NCBI RefSeq assembly: GCF_000787775.1
Contig: NZ_BBPM01000051.1
Span: 3,438-54,491, forward strand
Direction: 5' to 3'
Origin: Streptacidiphilus carbonis
GTDB taxonomy: Bacteria > Actinomycetota > Actinomycetes > Streptomycetales > Streptomycetaceae
DNA: 51,054 bases
Below, piece after piece: positions 2,303 to 44,473 of this stretch (its first letter is position 1; every line of letters starts with the position of its first letter). The notes beneath the pieces are model-generated. The model was not told where the DNA came from. It made no database searches and worked only from the letters and a program-made list of their open reading frames with translations. The position numbers and the translations under genes were made by a program.

Positions 2303-2306
2303 CCGG

Positions 2307-2684: not shown

Positions 2685-2795
2685 GCCGGACCTCCCTGTG
2701 GGATCGCTCCTGCAGTCCAGCTTAACGAGCGTCAGGACCTGGCTGTCAGTACCTGAAGCAGCCTCGCGTTGCCCGGCCGACAGCCGCGCTTCCGG

Positions 2796-2801
2796 TAGCG
2801 T
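2796..2801 (+). promoter_or_regulatory. -10-like hexamer for leaderless oxidoreductase mRNA
   Basis: TAGCGT ends 7 nt before the ATG at 2809 and there is no Shine-Dalgarno, so transcription probably begins at or next to the start codon. No convincing -35 was found. Confidence 0.5.
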
Positions 2802-2808
2802 CGGGCGC

Positions 2809-15880: not shown

Positions 15881-15918
15881 GCGTGTGCCCCGCTGCCGGG
15901 AGCGAATTCATCCCACCA

Positions 15919-15924
15919 TAGGAT
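15919..15924 (+). promoter_or_regulatory. -10-like hexamer for MFS gene
   Basis: TAGGAT ends 9 nt before ATG 15934, with no Shine-Dalgarno in between. Confidence 0.4.
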
Positions 15925-15933
15925 GGCGGCACT

Positions 15934-17358
15934 ATGCCTGCCGACCCCGGCGTCTCCACGTCCGCAACCGTGTCCCCGTCCGCATCGGCCGCGGTACCGG
16001 CCCAGCCGCTCAGGGCAGCAGCCGCCCGGACCACCGCGGTACCGGGGGCCTGGGCGGCGTGGGGCATCGGCGTCGCCGTCTACGTCCTCGCCGTGGTGCA
16101 CCGCACCAGCCTGGGCGTGGCCGGACTGGACGCCGCGGCCCGCTTCGGCATCGGCGCCTCCGCGCTGTCGACCTTCTCCATCCTCCAGGTGCTGGTCTAC
16201 GCCGGGATGCAGATACCCGTCGGCCTGCTGGTGGACCGGCTGGGGCCGCGCCGGGTGCTCAGCGGCGGGCTGCTGCTGCTCACCGCGGGCCAGCTCGGCT
16301 TCGCCTTCTCCACCGCGTTCACCCCGGCGCTGGTGTCGAGGGCGGTCCTCGGCTGCGGCGACGCGATGACCTTCGTCAGCGTGCTGCGGCTCGGCTCGCG
16401 CTGGTTCCCGCCCCGCCGCAACCCCTTCATCGCCCAGCTCACCGGCCTGGTCGGCACCATGGGCAACCTGGTCAGCACCCTGGTGCTGTCCCAGGTCCTG
16501 CACAGCGCCGGCTGGACGCCGACCTTCGCCACCACCGCGCTGCTCGGCGTCGCCGTCCTCGCCATGGTGCTGCTGTTCCTGCGGGACACCCCGGACAGCC
16601 CGCGCCGGGCCTCGCTGTTCCGGCTGCCGGTGGTGGCCTCGCTGGACGGCCTGACCGAGGCGGCCCCGGCGGCGGCGCCGGCCCGGCTGCCGCTGCGCGA
16701 GCAGATCGCCGCGGCCTGGCGCGAGCCCGGGACCAGGCTCGGCCTGTGGGTGCACTTCACCACGGCCTTCCCGGCCTCGGCCTTCCTGCTGCTGTGGGGG
16801 ATGCCGTTCCTGATGTCCGGTCAGGGGATGTCCAGGGCGCTGGCCGGCTCACTGCTCAGCCTCGTCATCGTCAGCGGGGTCGGCTTCGCGCTGCTGTTCG
16901 GGCAGCTGGTGTCCCGCCGCCCCGGGGTGCGCACCCCGCTGGTGTTCACCGTGGTGCTCACCACCGGCGGCCTCTGGGGCCTGGTGCTGAGCTGGCCGGG
17001 CGACCACATCCCGATGGGCCTGCTGGTGCTGCTGACCGTGGTGATGGGCAGCAACGGCCCGGCCTCCCTGGTCGGCCTGGACTACGCCCGACCGGTGAAC
17101 CCGCCGGAGCGGATCGGCACGGCCTCCGGGATCGTCAACATGGGCGGCTTCATCGCCGCCGTGCTGGCCCTGTTCGGCATCGGCCTGGTGCTGGACCTGC
17201 TCACCCCCGGCGGCGGGGACGACTACACCCCGCACGCCTTCCGGCTCGCGTTCTGCATGCTCTACCTGCCCATGGCGCTGGGCCTGACCCAGATCCTGCG
17301 GCTGCGGCCCAAGGCGGCCCGCCGGGAGGCCGAGCTCAGGTCCGAATCCAGGGCGTGA
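15934..17358 (+). CDS. MFS transporter, 12-helix type
   Basis: Major facilitator superfamily permease of 474 aa. After an Ala/Ser/Pro-rich N-terminal tail (about 1-40), about 12 hydrophobic helices are visible. The loop between helices 2 and 3 carries the MFS signature LLVDRLGPRRVL. A longer cytoplasmic loop around residues 215-260 separates the two six-helix halves, and a basic C-terminal tail (RLRPKAARREAE) ends the protein. Substrate unknown; the sequence has the general nitrate/sugar-phosphate-like MFS pattern but no diagnostic motif. Its 3' end converges with the isomerase-like gene 5 bp away. Confidence 0.85.
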   Translation: MPADPGVSTSATVSPSASAAVPAQPLRAAAARTTAVPGAWAAWGIGVAVYVLAVVHRTSLGVAGLDAAARFGIGASALSTFSILQVLVYAGMQIPVGLLVDRLGPRRVLSGGLLLLTAGQLGFAFSTAFTPALVSRAVLGCGDAMTFVSVLRLGSRWFPPRRNPFIAQLTGLVGTMGNLVSTLVLSQVLHSAGWTPTFATTALLGVAVLAMVLLFLRDTPDSPRRASLFRLPVVASLDGLTEAAPAAAPARLPLREQIAAAWREPGTRLGLWVHFTTAFPASAFLLLWGMPFLMSGQGMSRALAGSLLSLVIVSGVGFALLFGQLVSRRPGVRTPLVFTVVLTTGGLWGLVLSWPGDHIPMGLLVLLTVVMGSNGPASLVGLDYARPVNPPERIGTASGIVNMGGFIAAVLALFGIGLVLDLLTPGGGDDYTPHAFRLAFCMLYLPMALGLTQILRLRPKAARREAELRSESRA

Positions 17359-17363
17359 CGGAT

Positions 17364-18194
17364 CTACGGCGTGACGGCGAAGTTCTCCAGGATCCGCCGC
17401 CCGAGGGCCTCGTCCCCCTCGATCTTGACGTTGGCCGACATCGCGGGAATGCGGCCGCAGGCCAGCCGGGCGAAGGTCTCCCAGTCGGTGGTCAGCTGCA
17501 CCGCCGGGGCCAGCGGTACGGTCGCGTCCACGGTGCCAAGGCCGTCGTCGTCCACCCGCACCGTCCGCATGAACTCCAGCGGGCCGTGCACGTCGAAGAC
17601 CACGGCGGTGCCGGCCGGGGCGCCGGCCAGCTTGGCGACGGCCTTGGGCAGCATCTCGATCAGGTTGTCCCGGCTGACCACGGCGGCGGGGGAGTCCAGG
17701 TTCCCGGGCTTGCGCAGGGCACGGCGCAGGTCCTGCTCATGGGTCCACACGTCGAAGGCCCGGTTGCGCAGCAGGTGGAAGTACGGGATGTCGCGGCTGT
17801 AGGGGCCCATCGGCCAGCGCACCTCGTCGGTGGGCTGGTAGCGGCTGTTGTCCCGCAGCGCGCGCGAGCGCCGGATGATGGTGTACTCCAGCTCCGCGGT
17901 CATCTCCGGCGCGGTGTGGCAGCGCCGCTTGTCGACCGGGACCTCGCAGTAGCGGGTGAACTCGTCGACGACATGCCGCAGATCGCGCGGCAGGGTGTGG
18001 ATCGGACGCGGGTCGCCCAGCAGTTCCGTCTCCATGGCGATGACATGCGAGACCACGTCCCTCACCGACCAGCCAGGGCATTCCGTCGGACGGTTCCACT
18101 CACCCTCGGGGAGCGGCGCCACCAGCTCGGAGACGGCCTCGATGGACTGGGTCCAGGCGTCGGCATAGGCCTGGACTATCTGTGTGTCGGTCAC
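17364..18194 (-). CDS. Maleylpyruvate isomerase-family (mycothiol-dependent, DinB-like) protein
   Basis: Protein of 276 aa with the actinobacterial MDMPI N-terminal four-helix DinB-like domain: QSIEAVSELVAPLPEGEWNR, TECPGWSVRDVVSHVIAME and, later, RAFDVWTHEQDLRRALRKPG. The His in VVSHVIAME and the HEQD motif are the expected metal ligands of this family. The C-terminal part (about 185-276) resembles the SCP2-like domain that often follows it. Members use mycothiol as cofactor for isomerase or S-transferase reactions; the substrate here is not known. GTG 18194 is chosen for the GAGGGG about 9 nt upstream; an in-frame GTG at 18215 is possible. It diverges from the nitrilase gene. Confidence 0.85.
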   Translation of the reverse strand: MTDTQIVQAYADAWTQSIEAVSELVAPLPEGEWNRPTECPGWSVRDVVSHVIAMETELLGDPRPIHTLPRDLRHVVDEFTRYCEVPVDKRRCHTAPEMTAELEYTIIRRSRALRDNSRYQPTDEVRWPMGPYSRDIPYFHLLRNRAFDVWTHEQDLRRALRKPGNLDSPAAVVSRDNLIEMLPKAVAKLAGAPAGTAVVFDVHGPLEFMRTVRVDDDGLGTVDATVPLAPAVQLTTDWETFARLACGRIPAMSANVKIEGDEALGRRILENFAVTP

Positions 18195-31817: not shown

Positions 31818-32690
31818 ATGCCGCTGCCCAGCACGTCCACCCAGGTGACCTTCCCCGCCGGGGCCGTCGAGGGCCGCTCGACCGTCCTCGCCGCCGAGCC
31901 GCTGGGCGACGGGCGCTACGCGGTGGTCACCGCCGAGACGCCGTTCCACCCGCTGGACCACAGCTGGCCAGACCAGCCGGCCGATACCGGCAGCCTCGGC
32001 GGCGTGGCCGTACGCGACTGCGTGACCGGCGCGGTGGGTCCGGGCCCGGGCCCGGAGGGCGGGGCGCTGCTGCTGGGCGCGGACATCCCGGTGCGGCGCG
32101 GCGAGGAGGGCTGGGCCTGGCTGGTGGTCCATGTCACCGACGAACCGGTCGCCGTCGGCGCCGAGGTGGAGCTACGAGTGGACGCCGACCGCCGGGCCGC
32201 GCTCAGCGCCGCGCACACCGGCTGCCACCTGCTGGCGCTGGCCCTCAACGAGGCCCTGGCCCCGCGCTGGCGCAAGGACCCGGGCCGCGCGGACGCCCTG
32301 GGCCACCCCGACTTCGACAGCCTGGCGATGGACACCTCACGGATGGACACCGACGCCAGCACCGACACCTACCGGATCGGCAAGTCGCTCCGGAAGAAGG
32401 GCTTCACCTCTGACGACCTCGCCGCCGATCTGCCCGCGCTCACCGAGGCCGTCAACGCCCGGCTGGCCTCCTGGGTCGCCGCCGACGCCCCGGTCCGCGT
32501 CGAGGCCCCCGGCCCCGAGCTCACCGCCCGCCGCCGCTGGGCCTGCGACCTGCCCGAGGGCGGCGCCTCGATCTTCTGCGGCGGCACCCACCTGCACCAC
32601 CTCGGCGAGCTCGCCGCGCTCAGCACCGAGCTGCGCCTGAGCGAGGACGGCACCGAACTGATCGCCGTCACCACGCCCAAGCGACGTTGA
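31818..32690 (+). CDS. AlaX-like alanyl-tRNA editing protein / metal-dependent hydrolase
   Basis: Protein of 290 aa resembling the editing domain of alanyl-tRNA synthetase. A beta-barrel-like N-terminal part (1-125) is followed by the editing core with the two zinc motifs of the family: HTGCH (His133, His137) and CGGTH (Cys254, His258). Such stand-alone proteins hydrolyse mischarged Ser- or Gly-tRNA(Ala) in trans. The segment between the motifs is longer than in the smallest AlaX proteins and contains RKKGF and an Asp-rich insert. AGGAGAG lies just upstream of ATG 31818; the in-frame ATG at 31782 lacks a ribosome site. Converges with dcd, 28 bp apart. Confidence 0.8.
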   Translation: MPLPSTSTQVTFPAGAVEGRSTVLAAEPLGDGRYAVVTAETPFHPLDHSWPDQPADTGSLGGVAVRDCVTGAVGPGPGPEGGALLLGADIPVRRGEEGWAWLVVHVTDEPVAVGAEVELRVDADRRAALSAAHTGCHLLALALNEALAPRWRKDPGRADALGHPDFDSLAMDTSRMDTDASTDTYRIGKSLRKKGFTSDDLAADLPALTEAVNARLASWVAADAPVRVEAPGPELTARRRWACDLPEGGASIFCGGTHLHHLGELAALSTELRLSEDGTELIAVTTPKRR

Positions 32691-32718
32691 GGTTTCGGAC
32701 TACTTTCGGGCTACTCGC

Positions 32719-33294
32719 TCAGATCTTCGACTGATGAAAATTCAGGTACGAGCGTGACGGCGTCGGCCCGCGCTGCCCCTGGTAGCGCGAGCCGTACTTC
32801 TCCGAGCCGTACGGGTGCTCGGCGGGGGAGCTGAGCCGGAACAGGCAGAGCTGTCCGATCTTCATCCCCGGGTAGAGCTTGATCGGCAGCGTGGCGACAT
32901 TGGACAGCTCCAAGGTCACGTGCCCGCTGAAGCCGGGGTCGATGAACCCCGCGGTCGAGTGCGTGAGCAGCCCCAGCCGCCCCAGCGAGCTCTTGCCCTC
33001 CAGGCGCGAGGCGACGTCGTCCGGCAGCGAGATGACCTCGTACGTCGAGGCCAGCACGAACTCACCGGGGTGCAGGATGAAGGGCTCGTCGCCGTCCGGC
33101 TCCACCAGCCTGGTGAGGTCCGGCTGCTCGACCGAGGGGTCGATGTGCGGGTACTTGTGGTTCTCGAACACCCGGAAGAACCGGTCGAGCCGTACATCGA
33201 TACTGGACGGCTGGATCATGGCCGGGTCGTACGGGTCGATGACCACGCGACCGGACTCGATCTCGGTTCGGATGTCCTTGTCTGAGAGCAGCAC
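32719..33294 (-). CDS. dcd: dCTP deaminase
   Basis: Deaminates dCTP to dUTP for dTTP synthesis; homotrimer of the dUTPase fold. The 191-aa protein starts [20 protein letters not shown], contains [16 protein letters not shown], the P-loop-like [20 protein letters not shown], and the catalytic Glu in [12 protein letters not shown]. The C-terminal stretch [13 protein letters not shown] closes over the nucleotide. Full length. The start is GTG 33294, preceded by TAACCT with a 6-nt gap, pointing to leaderless translation. Confidence 0.97.
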
Positions 33295-33300
33295 GCCACG

Positions 33301-33306
33301 AGGTTA
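33301..33306 (-). promoter_or_regulatory. -10-like hexamer for leaderless dcd mRNA
   Basis: On the minus strand TAACCT ends 6 nt before GTG 33294. Confidence 0.45.
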
Positions 33307-33376
33307 CGTGCACCGAAGGGCCCCCGCCCAATCCGGCGGGGGCCCGCTTGACGTCTTGCGCTCCCTTGGGCCTACC

Positions 33377-33595
33377 TCAGGCCAGGAACTCGGCGGCTTC
33401 CCGCCGCAGGGCCTGCTGGATCTGCTCACCGGTGAGGGTGCCGAGATCGGCCGGTACGGAGCTGCGCAGTCTGGCGCAGAGGGGACACCGGATGAGCCGG
33501 CCGGGGCCGAGTCTCCCCGGCCCGAGATTCTGCAGCGGGAACGTTGCGGTGCTGAACAGGTGCCCCTCGGCACAACGGACGACTGTGCGCTCCAT
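33377..33595 (-). CDS. Small zinc-ribbon-like protein
   Basis: Protein of 72 aa, function unknown. It begins MERTVVRCAEGHLFSTATFP, contains a second Cys pair in LIRCPLCARLRSSVP, and ends in a helical stretch (TGEQIQQALRREAAEFLA). The C-x3-H plus CxxC spacing suggests one zinc site. GGAAG lies about 4 nt before ATG 33595; the frame is open to 33673 but the upstream residues are Arg/Trp-rich and unlike a conserved N-terminus. Located between dcd and the tRNA-Gly gene. Confidence 0.65.
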   Translation of the reverse strand: MERTVVRCAEGHLFSTATFPLQNLGPGRLGPGRLIRCPLCARLRSSVPADLGTLTGEQIQQALRREAAEFLA

Positions 33596-33888
33596 TGCTT
33601 CCTTTCCCCATCGGACGACATGCCGTGCCCAACCGCGCGAGCGGCGGCCGACCAGGCCCAACTCGCTCTGCACGCACTGCTGTCCGAGTGCTCGACCGAC
33701 CGCGTCGCCCCGGGTACGGCGTTGTCACATTAGGGGATGTTCCGGACATCCTGCCCGATGGCGCGCCGACCGGAACCCACCTCGATACTCACCCGGAAGC
33801 CGCCCGCCACAGTACGCCGCAGCGCCCCTCCCCCACCACCCGCCGCACGGGGCCCACGCGGTCGGTGCACCCGACCGGGGCCATGGGG
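33596..33888. other. Intergenic region before tRNA-Gly
   Basis: I see no supportable gene here. Short overlapping frames run through into the tRNA gene and lack ribosome sites or family features. The region must hold the promoter of the small zinc-ribbon gene. Confidence 0.5.
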
Positions 33889-33894
33889 TAGAGT
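33889..33894 (+). promoter_or_regulatory. Possible -10 of the tRNA-Gly gene
   Basis: TAGAGT, 32 nt before the mature 5' end. The leader contains CGGCC-N9-GGCCG-type pairing (about 33903-33921). No convincing -35. Confidence 0.4.
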
Positions 33895-33926
33895 GAAGCC
33901 GTCGGCCATACCTGACGGCCGATCAC

Positions 33927-33997
33927 GCGGGTGTAGTTTAATGGTAGAACATGAGCTTCCCAAGCTCAGAGCGCGAGTTCGATTCTCGTCACCCGCT
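33927..33997 (+). tRNA. tRNA-Gly (anticodon CCC)
   Basis: Complete cloverleaf: acceptor GCGGGTG pairs with CACCCGC; anticodon stem TGAGC/GCTCA with loop TTCCCAA gives anticodon CCC (reads GGG); T arm GCGAG-TTCGATT-CTCGT (one G-T at the stem end). Discriminator T at 33997, and CCA is encoded at 33998-34000. The 3' part is the attachment site of the element to the right. Confidence 0.95.
33955..33990 (+). repeat. att core, left copy (inside tRNA-Gly)
   Basis: 36 bp from the anticodon stem to the T arm, identical to 37465-37500. The next bases differ by a single-base deletion in the right copy, then CCCGCTCCA is again shared. Confidence 0.85.
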
Positions 33998-34004
33998 CCA
34001 CGCA

Positions 34005-34040
34005 AACCCCCAGGCCAGCGGCCCGGGGGTTCTTTGTTGT
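34005..34040 (+). terminator. Rho-independent terminator after tRNA-Gly
   Basis: AACCCCC and GGGGGTT arms (34005-34011 and 34025-34031) with an inner GGCC-AGC-GGCC stem, followed by the T-rich TTCTTTGTTGT. Confidence 0.8.
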
Positions 34041-34059
34041 CTAAACCAATTTCAAGTGA

Positions 34060-34081
34060 CGCACCACTGCCGCACCAGTAG
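34060..34081 (+). repeat. Tandem 11-bp repeats beyond the left att copy (possible integrase arm sites)
   Basis: CGCACCACTGC followed directly by CGCACCAGTAG. A related pair lies at nearly the same distance beyond the right att copy (37571-37592). Confidence 0.5.
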
Positions 34082-34287
34082 TAGCGGTCAGCCAGGGTCA
34101 ATGGGGGGTAGTCGCAGCGTTCCATGGTCTCCGTTGGCATGTCTCCAGTCGGTGCTGGTCACGTTCAATTGCACGTCGGATGGGGCAGTTCCTATCAGGG
34201 GCAGCTCTGAGAAGGTCCGGCGACGCATCGGTCTTCAGTGCGGGATACCGTCGAACCTAGACCAATCATGTACAGGCCAAAGGGGGC

Positions 34288-35859
34288 ATGGTGGTGGGTG
34301 AGACCGATCCATACGCTCGGGAGCTTGCACGGCAGGCTCGGGAGCAAGAGAAGCTTCGTCGGGCTGCTGAGGCGGAAGCCAAGCGGCGGGGTCGTGACGA
34401 GAAGCTGGCTTACGAAGCAGCCCGCGCTCAAGCAGCCGTTGACCAGACCAGTGTGATCGAGCACGAGGTTGAACAGCTCACGGCGCTGTTACGTACGGCG
34501 GTATCGGCGAACCAGGCGTTGACCTTCCCTGCGCTCAGGCAGGATTTTGTCCGGTCAATCTTTGCTCCGAAGGCTGGGCTGTCGCGAGAGACGCCGGTCC
34601 CTCGCTGGGAGGACTACGAGCCTGAACCTCCAAGGGGCTTGCGAGGAGCCCTTGGATTCGGGCGCCGCGGCTACGACGCGGAGATGGCGTCGGGGCGTGA
34701 GCAATTCGACAGGGCCCTGCGGAATCGCGAACGTGATGAGCAGAGGCGCTTGGAGAAGCTCGACAGGGCTCGTGCCCGGCATGAGGAGCGGAACGAAAGA
34801 GAGTCGGTGCGGGTCGCGGAATGGAACGCCGGTGTCGAGGAGCGGCGAAACGCTTACCGGGACAGGGACGTCGAAGCCGTCGAGTGGTTCGTCGATCAGG
34901 TCCTCGCAGCCTCCGTCTATCCGCAGGGCTTCCCGAAGGCCCACCAGGTCTCTTACCAGGCCGACACAGGGGACCTGCTTGTCGAGATCGACCTGCCGTT
35001 GGAAGACGTAGTGCCCGCGGCTCGCGCGTACAAGTACGTGAAGACACGCGACGAGCTGACAGCCGTTCCCCGCCCCGAGAAGGAACGCCATGAACTGTTC
35101 GCGTCGGTCCTCGCGCAGACAGCCTTGCGGACGGTCTACGAGCTGTTCGCCTCCGACGCCGAGGGCGCACTGCTGTCCATCGCGTTGAACGGGCACGTGG
35201 CCACCATCGACCGTGCCACTGGCCGCGACGTTCACCCGTGCCTGATCACTCTTCAGGCGAGTAAGGAGGAGTTCGGCCAACTGGTCCTCACCCAGGTCGA
35301 TCCGAGGGCCTGCCTGAAGCACCTTCGGTCGCTGATCTCGCCCAACCCGTACGAGCTGGAACCGGTGCGCCCTCTGGTGACGTTCGACCTGACCAAATTC
35401 CGACTCATGGACGGCATGGATGTCGTCGCGGGGTTGGACAGCCGACCAGTTCTGCTGGACCTGACACCTACGGAGTTCGAGCATCTCGTCCGGCAGCTGT
35501 TCGAGGCGATCGGGCTGGAGAGCGTCAACACGCGGCCGTCCCAGGACGAAGGCGTGGACGCGATCGCCATGAACACAGATCCCGTCATGAAGGGGCTGTG
35601 CGTCATCCAGGCGAAGCGCACCGCCAAAGTGGTGCCGTACGAGACGGTGTCCGCGCTTGCCGGCACGGTTGAACACAAGCGGGCGGCGAAGGGGATTCTC
35701 GTGACCACCTCGTGGTTCGGAAGGGCCAGTGAAGCGTTCGCCAACGAGCATGGGCGGCTCGAACTTCTAGACGGTGCCAACTTGGTGCACTTGTTCAAGG
35801 AGCACATGGGTCTCGACGTCATTCCCGGTCCGGTGCCACCGAAGCGCCGTCCTCGATAG
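34288..35859 (+). CDS. Mrr-like restriction endonuclease with coiled-coil N-terminus
   Basis: Predicted DNA endonuclease of 523 aa, probably a stand-alone restriction/defence protein. Residues about 5-60 and 130-190 are highly charged and likely coiled coil (REQEKLRRAAEAEAKRRGRD). The middle domain (about 195-385) is unrecognised. The C-terminal Mrr-type PD-(D/E)xK nuclease begins LTPTEFEHLVRQLFEAIGLE (392-411); catalytic residues appear as Asp424 (EGVDAI) and Gln441-Ala-Lys443 (VIQAKR), the QxK variant typical of Mrr, followed by GTVEHKRAAKGILVTTSWF. A TTA Leu codon at 34489-34491 suggests bldA-dependent translation. In-frame GTG 34294 has better spacing from AAGGGGG than ATG 34288. First gene of the tRNA-Gly island. 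Confidence 0.82.
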   Translation: MVVGETDPYARELARQAREQEKLRRAAEAEAKRRGRDEKLAYEAARAQAAVDQTSVIEHEVEQLTALLRTAVSANQALTFPALRQDFVRSIFAPKAGLSRETPVPRWEDYEPEPPRGLRGALGFGRRGYDAEMASGREQFDRALRNRERDEQRRLEKLDRARARHEERNERESVRVAEWNAGVEERRNAYRDRDVEAVEWFVDQVLAASVYPQGFPKAHQVSYQADTGDLLVEIDLPLEDVVPAARAYKYVKTRDELTAVPRPEKERHELFASVLAQTALRTVYELFASDAEGALLSIALNGHVATIDRATGRDVHPCLITLQASKEEFGQLVLTQVDPRACLKHLRSLISPNPYELEPVRPLVTFDLTKFRLMDGMDVVAGLDSRPVLLDLTPTEFEHLVRQLFEAIGLESVNTRPSQDEGVDAIAMNTDPVMKGLCVIQAKRTAKVVPYETVSALAGTVEHKRAAKGILVTTSWFGRASEAFANEHGRLELLDGANLVHLFKEHMGLDVIPGPVPPKRRPR

Positions 35860-35984
35860 CTGTAACCCCCGTATCCGGGTGCGATGTCTTCTCCTGCCGG
35901 GGAGCAGAGGGTGGCTCGGACGTGACCGGCCGTGCGACTCTGCGCTACCGCTCGAAGACCACCGATCCGTTGGCGGGGCGGAGA

Positions 35985-36743
35985 TCAGGTCTCGGTGTCC
36001 AGAAGTCTGGCCGCTGCGCGTGGATCCATGATGTTGGACCAGGCTTGCTCGGCGGGGAGGAGGTCGCGTTCGGGGAGGGCGTATTCGGGGTACCAGCCGT
36101 CCGTGTCACAGCCGGGGATGTTGCCGAGGACGACGGTGGCGAGGTTGGCGGGTACGGAGCCCGTGATACGGACGGCGGCGTAGGTTTCGTGCCCGTTGTC
36201 GGCCCGAACTTGGAGACCAAGGGTGAAGGTGTCGAAGTCCGAGGTGTGTTCGCGGCCGTCGCGCAGTGTGGCCCTGGTGAGCTCCTGGATCGTTGCGCGC
36301 AGACGCCGGGCGAAGCGGACTCCGGCTTCGGCGCGGTAGCGGATGTGGTCTTCGCGGGTCGGCAGCAGGTGCGCGCTGGACGTGGAGGTTTTCAACCCGT
36401 CGGCATGCGTGGCGTTGTAGCGGGAGCGCATCGCCTTGGCTTGGGCTTCGAGGGCGGCGTAGAAGTCGTCGCTGGAACCGTCTTCCCGTAGACCCGCTGC
36501 GACCAGCCAGGGAAGATCGGCGTCGATCCAGACGGCTCCGCGCCAGCGCTGCACCTTGACCTTGAACAGCACCGTGTCATCGATCGACCGAATCCGTTCG
36601 TGTTTGGTCTCTGCTTCGGCGAACTGCTCCGCAGCCTTGCCGAGGAGCGGATGAGCCAGCTCGTTCAGCGGCAGCGTCACAGCGGGCAGTGCCAGCTTCA
36701 GATCCTCGGCGAGACAGCGCAGGGTGGGGCGGGCAGGGTGCAT
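35985..36743 (-). CDS. Unrecognised 252-aa protein, second gene of island operon
   Basis: No family recognised. The protein is soluble and mostly alpha/beta by eye, with KVQRWRGAVWIDADLPWLVA (about 63-82), an Arg-rich helix (EAGVRFARRLRATIQELTRA) and LGLQVRADNGHETYAAVRIT near residues 175-195. No signal peptide or membrane segment. GGGGGA lies about 6 nt before ATG 36743. It starts 13 nt after the RHH-like gene, so the two form an operon; the pairing of a small DNA-binding-like protein with a larger soluble protein resembles toxin-antitoxin organisation, but nothing in the larger protein identifies a toxin. Codon use is less GC-biased than in the flanking chromosome. Confidence 0.7.
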   Translation of the reverse strand: MHPARPTLRCLAEDLKLALPAVTLPLNELAHPLLGKAAEQFAEAETKHERIRSIDDTVLFKVKVQRWRGAVWIDADLPWLVAAGLREDGSSDDFYAALEAQAKAMRSRYNATHADGLKTSTSSAHLLPTREDHIRYRAEAGVRFARRLRATIQELTRATLRDGREHTSDFDTFTLGLQVRADNGHETYAAVRITGSVPANLATVVLGNIPGCDTDGWYPEYALPERDLLPAEQAWSNIMDPRAAARLLDTET

Positions 36744-36756
36744 CGTGTTCCCCCGG

Positions 36757-37035
36757 TTACTCGTCGATCCCGCCGACGGAATCGATCTCTTCCGCAGTCA
36801 GCCCAGTCAGCAGCATCACGTCGGACTTGAGAGAGCCGTCGAGCACCTGCAACGCCTCGGCCATGCCAATTCGTAGGTCTTCGCGCCGCTGCTCCAAGTA
36901 GACCCGTACGGCATCGGCTACAAGGTCCTTCTTCGTCAAGCCCAGGAAATGTGCGCCCTGGCTGATCAGCTTGTCGGTTTCCGGGTCTACCTTCAGCGGT
37001 GACTGCCGGGGTGTCTTCGGTGAAGCCGTCGTCAT
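36757..37035 (-). CDS. Ribbon-helix-helix-like small protein (possible antitoxin/repressor)
   Basis: Protein of 92 aa. Residues about 12-50 (SPLKVDPETDKLISQGAHFL followed by GLTKKDLVADAVRVYLEQRR) have the strand-helix-helix pattern of RHH DNA-binding proteins. The C-terminal half contains LKSDVMLLTGLTAEEIDSVG and would be the partner-binding part if it is an antitoxin. GGAGG lies about 7 nt before ATG 37035, preferred over ATG 37050, which lacks a ribosome site. The upstream region has repeated GGTAC half-sites, as expected for autoregulation. Followed after 13 nt by the 252-aa gene. Confidence 0.7.
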   Translation of the reverse strand: MTTASPKTPRQSPLKVDPETDKLISQGAHFLGLTKKDLVADAVRVYLEQRREDLRIGMAEALQVLDGSLKSDVMLLTGLTAEEIDSVGGIDE

Positions 37036-37038
37036 CCG

Positions 37039-37071
37039 TACCACCTCCATGACAGATGGTACCTAAGTACC
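37039..37071 (-). promoter_or_regulatory. GGTAC repeats upstream of the RHH-like gene
   Basis: On the minus strand AGGTAC-TT-AGGTACC gives two direct GGTAC units, which also form GGTAC-N4-GTACC (37058-37071); a third GGTAC lies at the ribosome site (about 37038-37042). Candidate autoregulatory operator. Confidence 0.45.
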
Positions 37072-37464
37072 TCAAGCGATGCCATCCTCCTCTCGCTCCC
37101 ACGCACCGCTAGCGCACCAGTGGAAGCCGATTCTCGCCGAGGGGCTGCGCTTCGACGAGCGGGACGGTTGCGGGTGCGCCAGAGAGCCCAAGTTTCGACC
37201 GCGGTCCCGTGCCCAGCTCCGTGAGCGTCAGATCGCGTCGAAGCACCTGGAGGTTCCCCTTGCGGTCATGCTGACGAGGCGCGACCCCAGCAGCCGGAGA
37301 CTCGGGACGAGAAGGTGTGAGCCATCGTGCCCCTCGCGTGCCCGAACGAGCAGAGCCGAGCGGTAAACCACGGTGAAATCAGGGTCGTTCGATCAGCGGA
37401 GCAACGGCCTCGGGCGGGCTGAATGACCAGGTCAGGGCCAGTATTCCATGGTCATCGGGGCAAT
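37072..37464. other. Non-coding stretch at the right end of the island
   Basis: About 390 bp with no supportable gene. A 95-codon open frame (37079-37366) has no ribosome site, is Arg/Ser/Pro-rich and shows no family resemblance. It might be decayed integrase or excisionase sequence, but I could not recognise any integrase motif on either strand. Confidence 0.5.
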
Positions 37465-37500
37465 GCTTCCCAAGCTCAGAGCGCGAGTTCGATTCTCGTC
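37465..37500 (+). repeat. att core, right copy (partial tRNA-Gly 3' end)
   Basis: 36 bp identical to 33955-33990, followed by CCCGCTCCA (37501-37509) after loss of one base. The 5' half of a tRNA is absent, so it is not a functional tRNA gene. Confidence 0.85.
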
Positions 37501-37514
37501 CCCGCTCCATATGA

Positions 37515-37541
37515 AAGTCCCAGGTCAGTGACCTGGGACTT
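37515..37541 (+). terminator. Perfect hairpin after the right att copy
   Basis: AAGTCCCAGGTCA and TGACCTGGGACTT are perfect 13-bp arms with a single central base. It sits in the same place relative to CCA as the tRNA terminator on the left, with a different sequence, and is followed by GTTGTCTAGACCAA (37546-37559; left copy GTTGTCTAAACCAA). Confidence 0.6.
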
Positions 37542-37570
37542 CGTCGTTGTCTAGACCAACTGTATGCGGT

Positions 37571-37592
37571 CGTGCCAGTTGCGTGCCAGATT
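37571..37592 (+). repeat. Tandem 11-bp repeats beyond the right att copy
   Basis: CGTGCCAGTTG followed by CGTGCCAGATT, 62 nt past CCA (60 nt on the left). Same period and related sequence as 34060-34081. Confidence 0.5.
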
Positions 37593-37818
37593 GAGACTAA
37601 CGGACAGTCAGATTCGATCAGAAATGGTCACTGTTCGTGCGGCGGTGGTCGATTGGCATGCGACTATCCCAAATAGTGAGACGGACTTTCTGTGACCTGA
37701 GTCACTTGAAGTGGCAGGTGCTCTCTGATCGCGACTGCCGCGCCGGTTTGGCGACAGTCCACAAAGTGGTGCTCACTGCGATGCCTGCGCCAACGCTGGC
37801 CAGCGCAAGGGCCGCAGC
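37593..37818. other. Intergenic region beyond the right att copy
   Basis: AT-richer than the neighbouring coding DNA. I see no gene; the frame entering the next gene is open from 37637 but lacks a ribosome site and family-like sequence. Confidence 0.4.
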
Positions 37819-37824
37819 TATGCT
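37819..37824 (+). promoter_or_regulatory. -10-like hexamer for leaderless SMI1/KNR4-like gene
   Basis: TATGCT ends 7 nt before GTG 37832. It sets the start in a frame that is open nearly 200 bases further upstream. Confidence 0.5.
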
Positions 37825-37831
37825 CCGGCCT

Positions 37832-38953
37832 GTGACTGTCATCCGGCCCGAGCCCCTGACCCATGAAACGGCGTTCGCCCTGCTCGCTGCCTTGCCCGCT
37901 GAGATCGGTCCCGGACTGAGCGAAGCCGAGCTGGAGGCGATCGAGTGCGGGTATGGATTCACCTTTGCGGATGACCATCGGGTCCTGCTCCACGCCGGGT
38001 TGCCACTGGGCCGGTCCTGGCCGGACTGGCGTGACGGTGATCCGCAGGAGCTTCGCAATCGCTTGGACGCCCCGGCCGCCGGGGTCCTCTTCGACGTCGA
38101 GCATGCCGGCTTCTGGTACCCCGCCTGGGGCGAGCGGCCGGAGGATCGCAACGTGGCTCTGCGGCTCGCCCGCGAGCATCTGCTCAACGTCCCGCAACTG
38201 GTTCCGGTCTTCGGGCACCGATACCTGCCCGCCGGCAGCGGGCAGAGCGGCCACCCCGTGCTCTCCGTCATGCAGACCGACATCATCTACTACGGCAACC
38301 ACCTCGCCGACTACCTCCACCACGAGTTCGGCGGAGTCGCAGTCGACCTCAGCCGCACCCGAGCGAGCGTGCCCTTCTGGTCCTACTTCCTCGGCGAGAC
38401 CGGGATGCCGAGAGAGGTCGTCATCACCACGCCCCACGACCCCTACGCCGTCAGTGCGGGCGAGGCAGTCGACCACCTGCGCATGCTCGCCATCGAGCAG
38501 CGCCTCGGCCGCATCGTAGGTGCCGACCAGCTCATCCAAGCCGCCTTGGTCGCCCTCGTCCTGGACGTCGACACCCCTGCCCTGCGGGTTCTGGCCGGGC
38601 TGACGCGCAACGAGGAACCCTTGGCCAACGACCTGTTCGTCCAGGTCATCGAGGAACTCGACCTCGCTCCCACCATCCCCGACACGCAATCGGCCGCTGG
38701 CTGGGCCCTGGTGCGCTGGTGGCTTCAGCTGATCGCCAACGGCAGCCTGAACCCCGTCAAGGGCGGCGACCTCATCTGGTACGAGGGTTGGGACAGGCTC
38801 GGCCGCCCGGCCGCGCTGCGCCCCATCATCGGCTGGACCAGCGAGTACGACGACTGGACACCGGACTACACCGTGCCCCGCGACACCTGCAAGGACCGCA
38901 TCATTCAGGAGGCCCGCACCCTCCTGCACGGGCCGTGGCCACCCGACAGTTGA
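37832..38953 (+). CDS. SMI1/KNR4 (SUKH)-like protein
   Basis: Protein of 373 aa. The N-terminal 130 residues resemble the SMI1/KNR4 domain: helix GLSEAELEAIECGYGFTFAD, then HRVLLHAGLPLGRSWPDWRD, the usual SUKH core layout. The remainder (about 140-373) continues with FGHRYLPAGSGQSGHPVLSV and a helical C-terminal part that I cannot assign. SUKH proteins are often immunity proteins against secreted or contact-delivered toxins, but no toxin gene is adjacent. The start is chosen from the TATGCT-7 nt-GTG arrangement. Converges with the ADP-ribosylglycohydrolase gene, 1 nt apart. Confidence 0.65.
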   Translation: MTVIRPEPLTHETAFALLAALPAEIGPGLSEAELEAIECGYGFTFADDHRVLLHAGLPLGRSWPDWRDGDPQELRNRLDAPAAGVLFDVEHAGFWYPAWGERPEDRNVALRLAREHLLNVPQLVPVFGHRYLPAGSGQSGHPVLSVMQTDIIYYGNHLADYLHHEFGGVAVDLSRTRASVPFWSYFLGETGMPREVVITTPHDPYAVSAGEAVDHLRMLAIEQRLGRIVGADQLIQAALVALVLDVDTPALRVLAGLTRNEEPLANDLFVQVIEELDLAPTIPDTQSAAGWALVRWWLQLIANGSLNPVKGGDLIWYEGWDRLGRPAALRPIIGWTSEYDDWTPDYTVPRDTCKDRIIQEARTLLHGPWPPDS

Positions 38954-38954
38954 T

Positions 38955-39884
38955 CTACTGGTCCAGCCGTGCGGCGAGTGCCCTCAGGTCGGCGAGGTTC
39001 AGCTCCCGGCCGCCGGTTCCCGGGAGCAGGAGGTGGAGTGGGCGGGTCCAGGGTTCGGGGATGGCGTCCAGGCCGTAGACCGCGCCGGCGAGGCCGCCGG
39101 TGACGGCGGCGACGGTGTCGGTGTCGCCGCCGAGGTCGACGGCGGCGCGGAGGGCGGCGTCGAAGGTGTCGGTGGTGCGGAGGGCCCAGACGGCGGAGCC
39201 GAGGCAGGGCCAGACGGCGCCGTTGAACTCGGTGGCCTGGTCGGGGTGCCAGTCGGGGGCGAGGACGACGGCGTAGCGCTCGCGCTGGTCGGGGTCGAGC
39301 AGGGGGAGGATGTCGGGGAGGGCGGTGAGGGGGTCTCCGCCGTCCAAGGCGATGCGGATGAGCTCGTGGCAGATCGCGGTGCCCTCCCAGGCGGCGGGGT
39401 CGCCGTGGGTGAGGGCGGCGATGCGGCGGGCCGCGTCCATGGTGGTCTGCTGTCCGGCGCGGGCGAAGTAGACGGCGGAGGTGGTGGCGCGCATCAGCGA
39501 GCCGTTGCCAGCGGCGCGGTGGTTGGTCTGGAAGTGGATGGCGGCGGCCAGGTCCCAGGGGTGGCCGTTGGTCAGCACGCTCTGGGTCTGGAGCCCGATG
39601 TCCATGGGGTCGTCGGTGGCCCAGCGCTGGAAGCGGTCGAAGATGTCCGGCAGATCCAAGCCGCTGCGTTCGAGCAGGGACACGGCGAGGTGGACGGCCA
39701 TCTGGGTGTCGTCGGTGGCCTCGCCGGGCTCCCAACTGCCGCCTCCGCACATCTCCTTGTCGGGATCCGGTTCAGGGAAGCGAGTGGAGAAGGTGCGCTC
39801 CCTGCTGAACTCGAAGGGCGCACCCAGCGCGTCACCGACCGCCGAGCCGACCACGGCACCTGTCACCCGCTGGTCACGAACCAT
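38955..39884 (-). CDS. ADP-ribosylglycohydrolase family protein
   Basis: DraG/ARH-type hydrolase of 309 aa that would remove ADP-ribose from proteins or small molecules. The metal-binding motifs are in place: GSAVGDALGAPFEF near the N-terminus, EATDDTQMAVHLA (TDDT, about 55-67), and the late DLGGDTDTVAAVTGGLAGA. Two Mg ions bind the Asp residues in family structures. ATG 39884 has TAGGCT 6 nt upstream (39896-39891 on the minus strand), suggesting leaderless expression. The HAD-like gene lies 57 bp upstream on the same strand; substrate unknown. Confidence 0.92.
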   Translation of the reverse strand: MVRDQRVTGAVVGSAVGDALGAPFEFSRERTFSTRFPEPDPDKEMCGGGSWEPGEATDDTQMAVHLAVSLLERSGLDLPDIFDRFQRWATDDPMDIGLQTQSVLTNGHPWDLAAAIHFQTNHRAAGNGSLMRATTSAVYFARAGQQTTMDAARRIAALTHGDPAAWEGTAICHELIRIALDGGDPLTALPDILPLLDPDQRERYAVVLAPDWHPDQATEFNGAVWPCLGSAVWALRTTDTFDAALRAAVDLGGDTDTVAAVTGGLAGAVYGLDAIPEPWTRPLHLLLPGTGGRELNLADLRALAARLDQ

Positions 39885-39890
39885 GGCGGC

Positions 39891-39896
39891 AGCCTA
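39891..39896 (-). promoter_or_regulatory. -10-like hexamer for leaderless ADP-ribosylglycohydrolase mRNA
   Basis: On the minus strand TAGGCT ends 6 nt before ATG 39884. Confidence 0.5.
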
Positions 39897-39940
39897 GTTA
39901 CGGTGGGAAAGGGACGGCACTGGGTTTCTGACGCAGGCGT

Positions 39941-40471
39941 TCAGCGTGGGTCGAGTGCGGCGGCCCAAGCGCCGAGCCGGGTGAAGTCCTCCGGTTGCAG
40001 GCCGAAGCTCGGGTCGATGCGCTGGAGCAGGCAGGGGCTGGGATGGTGGGCAACTGCCCAAGCACGGTCCGCGTCGGTGATCTCGTCGTCCACCCAGGCG
40101 AAGGGGCGGCCGGCGGCCCAGGCCAGCAGCGGGCGCGTCTTCCAGTGCAGCGCGCCCAACTCGTCGTCATTCGTGGGGTCTGGCCAGTCGACCACCGGCA
40201 GTTGCGGCAGTCCGAGCCGGGGCGCGACGCACTCGTTGGCGTCGGCCATCCAGGTCGTGGCCCACACCAGCTCGTACGGCAGGGCCGCCAGGAGGTGGCC
40301 GAGTGCGGGATTGATGCGGGCCAGGAGTGGACTGGCTTCGGCATCGCGTCGTTCGGATCGGGCCTGGTAGAGCGGGTATCCCCCGGGGAGTTGTTCCGAC
40401 GTCGCCCCGAACGGGATGAGTGGTCCGTCCACGTCGAGGAAGAGAAGTGGGCGCTGCCCTGGGCTGATCAC
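39941..40471 (-). CDS. HAD-like protein (Swiss-army-knife RNA-repair-associated type)
   Basis: Protein of 176 aa. It opens with the HAD nucleophile motif RPLLFLDVDGPLIPFG and has WATTWMADANECVAPRLGLP and, near the end, FAWVDDEITDADRAWA, the acidic motif that completes a HAD active site. This is the small HAD-like family named for its occurrence in Swiss-army-knife RNA-repair proteins; stand-alone members like this have no established role. GTG 40471 is preceded by TACTGT with a 6-nt gap; ATG 40486 (AAAGGCAG upstream) is the alternative. Same strand as the ADP-ribosylglycohydrolase gene. Confidence 0.75.
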   Translation of the reverse strand: MISPGQRPLLFLDVDGPLIPFGATSEQLPGGYPLYQARSERRDAEASPLLARINPALGHLLAALPYELVWATTWMADANECVAPRLGLPQLPVVDWPDPTNDDELGALHWKTRPLLAWAAGRPFAWVDDEITDADRAWAVAHHPSPCLLQRIDPSFGLQPEDFTRLGAWAAALDPR

Positions 40472-40704
40472 GGCTGCACAGTACATCTGCCTTTCGGTCC
40501 ACCGGCCGTCGGAGTTCATGACGGAGCGATCGGAATCGTTCCTTCACCGGTCGCAGGCGGCCTCGACGTCGCCGAACGCTGCCGCGTAGGGGATTGCGTC
40601 AGGTGGATGGCTCCCGTCGCTGAGGCGGAAGACGCTGTGCTGTTGCGGGAGTTGGTCGGTCATACTGGTGCGCGTCCTGTCAAAGGGAGGAAGGCGTACG
40701 GCAT

Positions 40705-42071: not shown

Positions 42072-43592
42072 TCAACGTCGCGATTCGTCGTACGTCCGGT
42101 CGGTAAGTCCCAGTGCGCATACGGCGCCCAGTACGCAGACCACGGCTGTCACCCGGAAGATGTCGCTGTACTCGGTGTGGAGCGCCACCTTCAGTGCATG
42201 TTGGTACGCGGGCCAAGCCTTCTTGAAGTCGGACGTGCCCGGGACCGGCATGTCGAGGTGAGCCGTCAGCGTCTGAAAGCGGTGCAGCCCCCACGCCGAC
42301 AGCGCCGCCACGCCGACCAGCATGCCGATCGTCCGGGAGACCACCGCTGCGGCCGAGGCCGTCGCGTGCTGGCCGGGCTCCGTCGAGTCCAGCACCGCGC
42401 CCGCCACCGGCGCGATCACCAGGCCCAGCCCCAAGCCTGCGATCACGAGGTCGCTCTGCGCGAGTGGAAGCGGGCCGAGACGGGCGGCCAGAGGTGCCAG
42501 GGGCCAGGCCGCGATCAGGAAGTAGCCCGCGGCCGCCACCGCCATGCCGACCGCGGCCACGACGGAGTGGGTCAGCCGACGTCCGGCCAGACCGCCGATG
42601 ACGGCGCCCACCGGCAGCGCCGTCAGGAACCACATCAGCAGCAGTGCGCCGCCCACCGAGCTCTCGCCCAGCAGCGACTGCGCCACCAACTCCCCGTCCA
42701 CCAGCGTGACCAGCAGCGCCACGCCGGCGCAGAAGCTCGTCGCCATCGCTGCGGCGAAGGGGCGCCGTCGCATCCGTCGGGTATCGATCAGGCGCGTCCG
42801 ACTGCGGCGCTCCCACAACGCGAAGGCCGCCAGCGCCACCACGCTGCCGAGCAGCATGGGCAGGCCCCAGCTCGGCAGCACCGACTTCTGCGGGTCCTGG
42901 TTGTCCAGGGCCGCCACCAGCAGCGCCAGCGCCACTGCCAGCAGGGCGCCGCCGACCAGGTCCGTGTGGCGGCCCTCGTCCGGCCCGCCCTGCTCGGGCG
43001 AGGCCGCGGCGGGAACCGTGAACTCCGTCACCACCGCCGCGACCAGCACGAGCGGGACGTTGACCCAGAACACCCCGCGCCAGCCCGTGAGCGACGCGAC
43101 GCCGGCCCCGTACAGCGGGCCCAGCACGCTCCCGAGCTCCTGCGCTGCGCCCACGGAACCGAGCGCCACCGGCCTTGCCCGGCCCTGGAACAGGCGCCCG
43201 GCCAGCGCGAGTGCGACCGGCAGCAGCGCACCTGCCGCGATGCCCTGCACCAGCCGCCCCGCGACCAGCAGTTGGAGGCTGTGCGCGCTCGCCGTGAGCG
43301 CCGAGCCGGCCGCGAAGACGACGAGGCAGGCCTGGAGCACGCGTCGCGGGCCGAACCGGTCCGCGCTCTGAGCCAGTAGCGGCATGGCGGCGACATAGCC
43401 GAGCAGGTACGCGGTGACGATCGCGGTGGCCCGCTCCAGATGGTTGAGCGGGATCCCCAGGTCATCGGTGATCGAGTTCAGCAGGGTGACGATGACGTAG
43501 GTGTCCAGCGACCCGAGCAGCACGACCACGCCGGTGACGCCCAGGACGGCGTGCCGCCCCGTTTGGGCCGTCCCGGTGTCGACGTCGGTCAC
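42072..43592 (-). CDS. MFS transporter of the DHA2 (14-helix) type, P55-like
   Basis: Major facilitator of 506 aa with about 14 hydrophobic helices. The motif-A region reads MPLLAQSADRFGPRRVLQAC, and the DHA2 motif near helix 5 is GSVLGPLYGAGVASLTGWRG followed by VFWVNVP. A charged loop around residues 195-215 and RRSRTRLIDTRRMRRRPF near the middle lie in the cytoplasm. GTG 43592 overlaps the stop of the preceding lipoprotein gene (GTGA), so the two are coupled. The LprG-like lipoprotein plus MFS pair matches the mycobacterial lprG-Rv1410c (P55) operon, which exports triacylglycerides and affects drug tolerance. A matching role here is inference. Confidence 0.88.
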   Translation of the reverse strand: MTDVDTGTAQTGRHAVLGVTGVVVLLGSLDTYVIVTLLNSITDDLGIPLNHLERATAIVTAYLLGYVAAMPLLAQSADRFGPRRVLQACLVVFAAGSALTASAHSLQLLVAGRLVQGIAAGALLPVALALAGRLFQGRARPVALGSVGAAQELGSVLGPLYGAGVASLTGWRGVFWVNVPLVLVAAVVTEFTVPAAASPEQGGPDEGRHTDLVGGALLAVALALLVAALDNQDPQKSVLPSWGLPMLLGSVVALAAFALWERRSRTRLIDTRRMRRRPFAAAMATSFCAGVALLVTLVDGELVAQSLLGESSVGGALLLMWFLTALPVGAVIGGLAGRRLTHSVVAAVGMAVAAAGYFLIAAWPLAPLAARLGPLPLAQSDLVIAGLGLGLVIAPVAGAVLDSTEPGQHATASAAAVVSRTIGMLVGVAALSAWGLHRFQTLTAHLDMPVPGTSDFKKAWPAYQHALKVALHTEYSDIFRVTAVVCVLGAVCALGLTDRTYDESRR

Positions 43593-44299
43593 GACGGCGG
43601 AGCGGTGATCGTCGCCGGCGCGTCGAAATCGGAGAACGTGGCCGTCACCGAGCCGCTGCCTCCCGATGCCGTGCTTACGGGGAACGAGACCTGCACGAGT
43701 TGCGACGAGGACACCGTCAGCCACAGATCGCCCTGCTCGCTCTGCGAGTCCCCGGGAACCAGCGTGGCCAGCACCGGCTGCGCCAGCAGCGCCTTCACGT
43801 GGTAGACCGACTGCCCGTCCAGCGTCTCCCGGTCCACCGTCCGCGCACCCGTCGCCGTCTGCAGCAGCTTCACGACCCCCTTGTCCGGGTCCAGGATCGC
43901 TTCGGGGTTGTAGACGGAGGTGGCGACCTGGAGCGGGACCTTGCTGTAGCCACCGGTCGCGCCCTTGATGTAGGCAGTGGAGCCCACGATGACGAAGTTG
44001 ATCTCCAGTAGGGCGCCGCTCTCGGACACGGACGCCTTGCCCTGCGCGTTCCCGGCCCGGGTCAGCTGACCGGTGGCACTGCGCAGGGCGAGGCCCGCGA
44101 TCTGGCCGCTCGCATTGATCGAGAAGCGCACCGTCTGCACTGCGGTCATCGCCGTCGCACCGCTGCCCAGCAATTGCGCGGCTGCCGGAAGGTTGGTTGT
44201 TTCCTTGCCGCCGCCGCTGCTGCTGCCGCCACTGGAGCATGCGGAGAGCGGGAGCGCGAGTACGGCCATGACAGCCGCTAGGGTCCGGGGGTTTCGCAT
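43589..44299 (-). CDS. LprG/LppX-family lipoprotein
   Basis: Secreted lipoprotein of 236 aa. The signal peptide MRNPRTLAAVMAVLALPLSA ends at lipobox LSAC with Cys21. A Gly/Ser linker is followed by the LppX/LprAFG beta-sandwich (about 35-230): SINASGQIAGLALRSATGQL, VSESGALLEINFVIVGSTAY, QSVYHVKALLAQPVLATLVP. In mycobacteria this fold carries lipids in a hydrophobic cavity and hands them to or from the MFS partner. Its stop overlaps the start of the MFS gene. ATG 44299 follows TAGCAT with a 6-nt gap, so the operon is probably leaderless. Confidence 0.88.
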   Translation of the reverse strand: MRNPRTLAAVMAVLALPLSACSSGGSSSGGGKETTNLPAAAQLLGSGATAMTAVQTVRFSINASGQIAGLALRSATGQLTRAGNAQGKASVSESGALLEINFVIVGSTAYIKGATGGYSKVPLQVATSVYNPEAILDPDKGVVKLLQTATGARTVDRETLDGQSVYHVKALLAQPVLATLVPGDSQSEQGDLWLTVSSSQLVQVSFPVSTASGGSGSVTATFSDFDAPATITAPPS

Positions 44300-44305
44300 A
44301 GTCGG

Positions 44306-44311
44306 ATGCTA
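44306..44311 (-). promoter_or_regulatory. -10-like hexamer for the lipoprotein-MFS operon
   Basis: On the minus strand TAGCAT ends 6 nt before ATG 44299. Confidence 0.5.
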
Positions 44312-44473
44312 GAGGTCGCGTCAGGCCGGCGGCAGTGGTTCACGGGCACAACAAGGAACGATCTGACGGTACGTCATATTATCTGCTCGGGGGACATTGC
44401 GGGGCTGGTTCGGGTCGGCTCCCAGGTGCGGGAGGTTGGGCGGATTGTCAGTGGGTGCTGCCAGGATCGCGGC

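Follow-up and report, generated by a model that had tools for sequence, protein, structure and literature searches.

Units that keep attachment (att) sites at both ends while lacking integration and transfer genes have been defined as cis-mobilizable elements (CIMEs), together with their site-specific accretion, in the account of PMC5704250. Here we describe a CIME-like unit in a 51,054-nucleotide stretch of the Streptacidiphilus carbonis genome (contig NZ_BBPM01000051.1; hereafter the window), namely a cassette next to tRNA-Gly(CCC) that carries an Mrr-type restriction nuclease gene and a two-gene pair encoding a ribbon-helix-helix (RHH)-like protein and a 252-aa protein (RHH/252). Like a CIME, it has att at both ends, has no integration or transfer genes and stands in tandem with other elements at one site. 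Unlike the CIMEs described, many segments at this site measure only 0.8-3 kb, toxin-antitoxin genes are enriched, modules recur behind different tRNAs, and no resident helper for the site was seen in the window's genome.

Several described systems come close. A CIME beside an integrative and conjugative element (ICE) is described for TR1/TR2 of Streptomyces scabiei (PMC8369830), and actinomycete ICEs (AICEs) are described in tandem in Frankia and in a tRNA-Arg of S. avermitilis (PMC3218068). As at our locus, a unit that lacks mobility genes of its own stands next to an ICE and one att site is used in tandem, but the elements are much larger and occupy other target sites. Accretion and decay of AICEs in a Streptomyces population, with several elements in one tRNA, direct-repeat remnants and truncated integrases, is presented in PMC9513070; the tandem case given there concerns a tRNA-Arg in one population, whereas ours concerns tRNA-Gly(CCC) across the family with the end signatures counted. 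In Dehalococcoides, 15 att-bounded, tandem ssrA islands without an integration module are reported (PMC3146451), and by that account they differ in their serine recombinase, ssrA target and reductive dehalogenase cargo. Finally, the 3.8-kb islet Gi-8 of S. coelicolor (SCO4210-4213) is listed with a 19-bp direct repeat and the Mrr-like SCO4213 (PMC1934918, Table 1). The source is inconsistent on this point, as its text puts SCO4213 in Gi-10 and the gene range of its table in Gi-8; its description of Gi-8, which reports no tRNA nearby, sets the islet apart from our cassette.

CIMEs, accretion and AICE decay are therefore already known, also in Streptomyces, and the cassette is of a known kind by its mechanism of origin. 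What is notable here is the number of small cassettes, the enrichment of toxin-antitoxin genes, the retained ends, and the re-packaging of modules at more than one tRNA. Among the open-licence matches listed, judged by titles and opening lines, none dealt with tRNA-Gly(CCC) cassette arrays or tRNA-bounded toxin-antitoxin cassettes in Streptomyces.

The tRNA-Gly(CCC) cassette and its insertion

The cassette spans 3,464 bp (34001-37464) between the tRNA and a copy of the tRNA 3' part (Table 1). The 36 bp at 33955-33990 recur exactly at 37465-37500, and searching the window with up to 3 mismatches gave 2 matches, with 0 in 100 shuffles; the right copy extends to 37509 with one base missing and covers tRNA positions 29-74. 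The GC content between the copies is 64.1%, compared with 71.3% for the whole window. Three genes were called inside, encoding the Mrr, 252-aa and RHH proteins, none of which matched PF00589; a profile built from the integrases of this site found nothing in the cassette either, and no FtsK-like match was present. No integrase trace was thus seen in the cassette, and a faint one lies in the next. Besides the tRNA, no RNA gene was found within 33500-38200 at the Rfam gathering score. The original prediction of an integrase-free, lower-GC island with a restriction nuclease and a two-gene operon, bounded by a 36-bp exact repeat that leaves the tRNA intact at its left copy, was confirmed by ARAGORN, the repeat search and the PF04471 assignment of the nuclease, the RHH member resting at a sub-threshold match; the tRNA-bounded, integrase-less cassette is real. 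It keeps attL and attR and has neither integrase nor transfer genes, as a CIME does, and it does not have the integrase plus FtsK-like translocase that characterize an AICE.

To place the cassette among its relatives, the locus was compared across the genus (G and L numbers denote genomes and loci). A site lacking this cassette was found in G001, where the tRNA is followed at once by sequence matching window 37465-38945; window 32501-34048 (79.9%) and 37465-38945 (80.0%) align to one continuous G001 stretch across a single tRNA. Of 14 genus genomes, 8 have partial tRNA-Gly(CCC) copies after the tRNA; the other six show the tRNA only in the 12-kb stretches taken, with further matches of 81-82% elsewhere in the genome. 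Integrase genes or fragments of them follow this tRNA in three relatives: a gene for 399 aa in G013, two frames that overlap in G012, and a single frame of 288 aa in G009. Most relatives did not show the same gene order without a second att copy, as a coincidental repeat would imply: an Mrr protein above 46% identity occurs in 0 of 12 other genus genomes. Since G001 lacks exactly this segment and many relatives carry partial tRNA copies, the comparison of sequences supports well that the cassette arose by site-specific insertion. A coincidental repeat was rejected on the shuffles, the G001 comparison and the fixed start positions of the copies.

Two further comparisons concern neighbouring sequence. 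The right flank of the window at 42106..44370 is 90% identical to the flank past the cassette array of G004. Isolated att copies far from the tRNA, preceded by a similar right-terminal module, occur in G011 (L047, 9202-9247) and G013 (L048, 7843-7879), which suggests rearranged or secondary sites.

Tandem segments at the site and their ends

The survey was widened to 40 genomes of the family, hand-picked for long contigs from the best matches listed rather than drawn at random. At least one partial copy lies within 19 kb in 24 of them, at least two in 17 and none in 16, segments longer than 19 kb being invisible to this count. Over all loci, 66 att-to-att segments were delimited, 27 of them no longer than 3 kb, and the cargo between the copies varies from genome to genome. 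Seven segments hold an integrase frame of at least 340 aa (among them G012, counted although its integrase spans two frames), 13 hold fragments only and 46 none, "integrase-less" being defined by one iterated tyrosine-integrase profile over frames of at least 60 aa. An FtsK/SpoIIIE-type match is clear in four of the seven (including that of the query itself, PF01580), weak in one and absent from two, and on this gene content the integrase-bearing elements of the site are AICE-like. The L107 integrase, also from this site, is an intact relative of that of G012, and no near match of its DNA was found in plasmids.

The copies start at tRNA positions 27-31 in 66 of 72 cases. This bears on whether the repeat came from segmental duplication or homologous exchange instead of site-specific recombination, which a single genome alone could not exclude. 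Given that the copies share their start positions, bear arm-like motifs and flank differing cargo, we regard such an origin as extremely improbable.

The ends of the segments were then examined. The arm-like left pair ([CG]G[CT][AG]CC twice, 11 bp apart) occurs in 24 of 66 segments (shuffle mean 0.18) and the right pair in 34 (shuffle mean 0.38), with 0 of 66 at two inner control positions. Of the 66 segments, 53 carry the motif CAGGTCAG (at most 1 mismatch) within 60 bp of their right end, against 1-3 of 66 in inner controls and a mean of 3.8 (maximum 10) in shuffles of all 66; counted in either orientation it reaches 59 of 66, against 2-7 in five inner controls. These motif counts include sister species, which are not independent. 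By class, right pairs were found in 6 of 7 segments with a full integrase, 7 of 13 with fragments and 21 of 46 with none, and forward CAGGTCAG in 6 of 7, 10 of 13 and 37 of 46. The window cassette carries left pair, right pair and motif together, as only 3 of the 46 integrase-less segments do. Moreover, its final 140 bp could be aligned with three G004 junctions, one isolated G011 copy and the right end of the G012 element, an element that has an integrase gene. In six integrase-less segments the right-end motif is reversed (loci L035, L036, L037, L032 at 14777-17405 and L034, oriented, at 771-3407), which suggests that this tRNA hosts ends of a second class.

On these ends, the window cassette is probably a CIME-like accretion cassette and a predicted substrate of an incoming integrase. 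Several results weigh against this interpretation. The left pair, found in 6 of 7 segments with a full integrase and 8 of 13 with fragments, occurs in only 10 of 46 integrase-less segments, and its scarcity there points to decay in many of them; many also bear the end signatures incompletely. When the last 140 bp of the cassette are compared with the right ends of the other six elements with an integrase, the scores of 21.5-28.5 exceed the maxima of 200 shuffles (20.5-24) only slightly, and the score against the G013 element lies within the shuffle range. The G012 integrase, in two overlapping frames, may be broken, and attR has lost one base. The recurrence of a whole att-to-att cassette in G012 and G004, 91.4% identical over 2,629 bp compared with 79.0% for the core upstream of the tRNA, speaks for the interpretation, but the gain is uneven, third-position identity being 0.82-0.92 for three cassette genes and 0.76 for dcd. 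Finally, no cognate integrase for tRNA-Gly(CCC) was seen in the S. carbonis genome searched, a draft of 8.46 Mb in 139 contigs. There, the G013 integrase has five relatives, all at 30% identity or less, the best at a tRNA-Arg; four of them adjoin tRNA-Arg(ACG), tRNA-Pro(GGG), tRNA-Tyr(GTA) and tRNA-Arg(UCU), and the fifth has no tRNA in the stretch examined. A profile of eight site integrases gave six matches in this genome, the best with 52 bits over part of the model.

That no cognate integrase was seen is also what one would expect of an inert relic, a decayed element that arrived by integration, is now immobile with its att copies as fossils, and is kept by drift or useful genes. The 13 segments with integrase fragments only and the 36 of 46 integrase-less segments without a left pair under the strict pattern fit the same view, as does the AICE decay with truncated integrases described in PMC9513070. 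The complete set of end signatures on the window cassette, and the homology of its right end to that of an element with an integrase gene, speak against it, and we consider a relic possible though rather unlikely. The suggestion that the island may be moved in trans is supported indirectly by the conserved ends, from which we infer such mobility, and is weakened by the host's own genome, where no cognate integrase was seen, and by the partial ends of many integrase-less segments.

Cargo units and the composite structure

The Mrr protein contains the Mrr_cat domain PF04471 (E 1.1e-27, Pfam), and its PADLOC match covers residues 14-522, so that it has the catalytic domain and near full length of the type IV Mrr family model. 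No solved structural relative was found at E 0.01. A protein search of named genomes gave 20 Mrr loci, 19 in Streptomyces and 1 in Streptacidiphilus. For 14 of these, the sequence upstream on the same strand contains Gly(CCC), Pro(CGG) or Arg(CCG), as a tRNA or as a partial copy, and in the other six none of the three was found in the stretch examined; in L060 the upstream copy is a partial Pro one and the downstream copy a Gly one. The Mrr homologue of S. violaceorubidus is flanked by tRNA-Pro(CGG) on one side and a partial copy of that tRNA on the other (L063, 7323-15709). The 19-bp repeat of Gi-8 might likewise be a piece of a tRNA-Pro(CGG)-type copy. Phage and plasmid origins of the window Mrr were both rejected: phage records gave no match, and the 32 plasmid records matched all lie below 60% identity. 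By family, the window Mrr is probably SCO4213-like. SCO4213 is given as acting on N6-methyladenine DNA in the account of PMC3874153, and by analogy the window Mrr would restrict methylated incoming DNA.

The RHH assignment of the 97-aa protein rests on a sub-threshold PSK_trans_fac match (E 0.00035, 21.9 bits, cut-off 28.3; Pfam). The 252-aa protein had no Pfam match up to E 0.1 and none in PHROG or NCBIfam. Its structural model is poor (predicted local distance difference test, pLDDT, 60), Foldseek with this model gave no match at E 0.001 or better, and three matches near E 0.4 came from a profile search against solved structures. The protein was matched in 24 of 394 family genomes at E 1e-6, and 22 such loci were examined. 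A tRNA or copy of Gly(CCC), Lys(UUU) or Arg(UCU) lies within 1.5 kb in 17 of them and in 5 does not. Eight loci are bounded on both sides, with 1.4-2.7 kb between the copies (L175, L177, L178, L179, L181, L187, L188, L192; the left copy has only 33 bases in L178 and L188). In five of these eight, L175 (Arg), L177, L178 and L181 (Gly) and L188 (Lys), the pair is the only called content, at 1.4-1.5 kb each; of the remaining three, L187 has one more weak frame, L179 further frames and L192 a split 252 gene. Likeness between cassettes at different tRNAs is limited to the two-gene unit of about 1.1 kb.

A match to the RHH protein, whose own RHH assignment is sub-threshold, adjoins all 16 intact 252 genes, and no intact 252 gene without RHH was found among the loci examined. 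A split or truncated 252 gene accompanies a full or nearly full RHH gene at five loci (L176, L190, L192, L194, L195); both genes are reduced at L191, L193 and L196, and L200 has a 252 fragment without RHH. This pattern of linkage and loss favours the pair as a candidate toxin-antitoxin module. It could also be read as mobility machinery, with the 252-aa protein an unrecognised recombinase, RHH its directionality factor and the 1.4-kb cassettes minimal autonomous elements: the 252 gene stands close after the att copy in reverse orientation, like integrase genes, and small cassettes occur at three tRNAs, five of them with the pair alone called. This is very unlikely in our view, because no recombinase match was found and no convincing structural match, though the model is poor, because five loci keep RHH beside a broken 252 gene, and because similar proteins would need to serve three different att cores.

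The recurrence of both behind other tRNAs indicates that the Mrr gene and the RHH/252 pair are separate cargo units. In G010 an att copy immediately precedes the RHH/252 region (89.9%), and in G030 this region takes up the whole of an att-bounded cassette of 1,471 bp, whereas in the window no att copy was found between it and the Mrr gene. The window cassette thus looks like a fusion of two units, and a deletion fusing two cassettes would explain the missing att copy.

Toxin and defence genes were also found in other cassettes of the site. Among the small integrase-less cassettes, Pfam identified, among others, AbiEii and PIN toxins, one of the latter paired with a CcdA-like protein; further cassettes encode a sigma factor, an RHS-type fragment or proteins without a Pfam match. 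In the 24 array genomes, which were chosen for having att copies and not for gene content, 6 of 50 PIN matches (PF01850) lie within the 20-kb stretches at the tRNA (expected 0.114, 53-fold), as do 4 of 23 AbiEii matches (PF08843; expected 0.049, 81-fold). Three of the six PIN genes sit past the last att copy, and att-bounded bases alone hold 3 PIN (expected 0.069, 43-fold) and 4 AbiEii matches (expected 0.030, 133-fold). Genes for PIN, AbiEii or the 252-aa protein were tallied in 12 of 23 small and 3 of 23 large integrase-less segments, 0 of 7 with a full integrase and 1 of 13 with fragments, a tally biased by seeds taken mostly from small cassettes, so that the whole-genome Pfam counts are the fair test. 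Two PIN-containing cassettes hold further defence-type matches: in L128 (2775-4634) a Beta_protein gene matching PADLOC PD-Lambda-2_C, and in L126 (1264-2526) a DUF4365 protein with a partial match to PADLOC Aga_REase-PNTD1-PNTD2.

A second cassette follows attR in the window. Its 438-aa frame (37637-38953; start at 37820 by the gene caller) has no Pfam, PADLOC, PHROG or NCBIfam match and is common to G001, where it stands directly 3' of the tRNA. It runs straight into ADP-ribosylglycohydrolase and HAD_SAK_2 genes (38955-40519), which in G012 and G004 form, with a DUF6928 gene, another att-bounded cassette, the 2.63-kb one compared above. The second cassette therefore looks eroded in a similar way to the first.

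Table 1 Features of the window cassette and the adjoining second cassette (window positions)
Feature	Position	Strand	Basis
tRNA-Gly(CCC), intact, insertion target	33927..34000	+	ARAGORN; Rfam tRNA
attL core, tRNA positions 29-74	33955..34000	+	Repeat search
Terminator-like hairpin 3' of the tRNA	34005..34031	+	Inspection; similar ones after most att copies among those listed
Left arm: paired CGCACC repeats, 11 bp apart, putative integrase arm sites	34060..34076	+	Pattern search
Mrr-type restriction nuclease, 523 aa	34288..35859	+	PF04471; PADLOC mREase_IV model PDLC03663, 624 bits
Putative fusion junction; att copy not found where relatives carry one ahead of the 252-aa gene	35860..35970		Comparison
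252-aa protein, second gene of the pair, candidate toxin	35985..36743	-	Link to RHH in relatives
RHH-like protein, 97 aa, candidate antitoxin	36757..37050	-	Weak PSK_trans_fac match
Conserved right-terminal module: paired CGTGCC repeats from 37326 and CAGGTCAG at 37428-37435	37325..37464	+	End comparison
attR core, one base shorter than the tRNA	37465..37509	+	Repeat search, alignment
Second, apparently eroded cassette: left arm, 438-aa gene, ADP-ribosylglycohydrolase and HAD genes	37510..~40536		Comparison; distal att not found
Faint integrase-like remnant inside the second cassette	37679..37807	-	10 bits, E 0.0005 in a set of 18 frames

Proposed history and significance of the site

The comparisons show that an Mrr-bearing element integrated by site-specific recombination into the 3' part of the tRNA, which rebuilt the tRNA and left an att copy at each end. 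To judge from the boundaries, a later deletion may have fused this element to an older resident RHH/252 cassette, with loss of the att copy between them. The composite keeps ends of the type found on integrase-bearing elements of the site, and given this likeness an incoming integrase should be able to act on it; an AICE-borne integrase could then excise or re-insert the composite, alone or with its neighbours. The RHH/252 pair would meanwhile act as a toxin-antitoxin module resisting loss.

Integron gene cassettes form arrays of small, often toxin-antitoxin-bearing units that are moved by a recombinase encoded elsewhere, and they are defined by IntI and attC. The units here differ in being bounded by copies of the tRNA 3' end, and no dedicated search for attC or IntI was made. 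As a tentative and bolder proposal, which we think has a smaller chance of being right, tRNA-Gly(CCC) of streptomycetes might be a tRNA-based counterpart of the integron: rows of small integrase-less toxin-antitoxin and defence cassettes with attP-type ends would be moved in trans by the integrases of visiting AICEs and would swap ends, so that a single module could sit at different tRNAs, and RHH/252 would be a new toxin-antitoxin family that helps to hold the rows together.

The site offers a natural series of integrase-bearing, fragment-bearing and integrase-less segments with defined ends, which makes trans-mobilisation directly testable, as well as a candidate toxin-antitoxin family without a match in the libraries searched. 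It also places Mrr-type nucleases, a kind that impedes DNA uptake in Streptomyces, in tRNA-linked contexts. If such cassettes are moved in trans, defence and addiction genes would spread among streptomycetes without mobility genes of their own, and surveys keyed on integrases or transfer genes would miss them.

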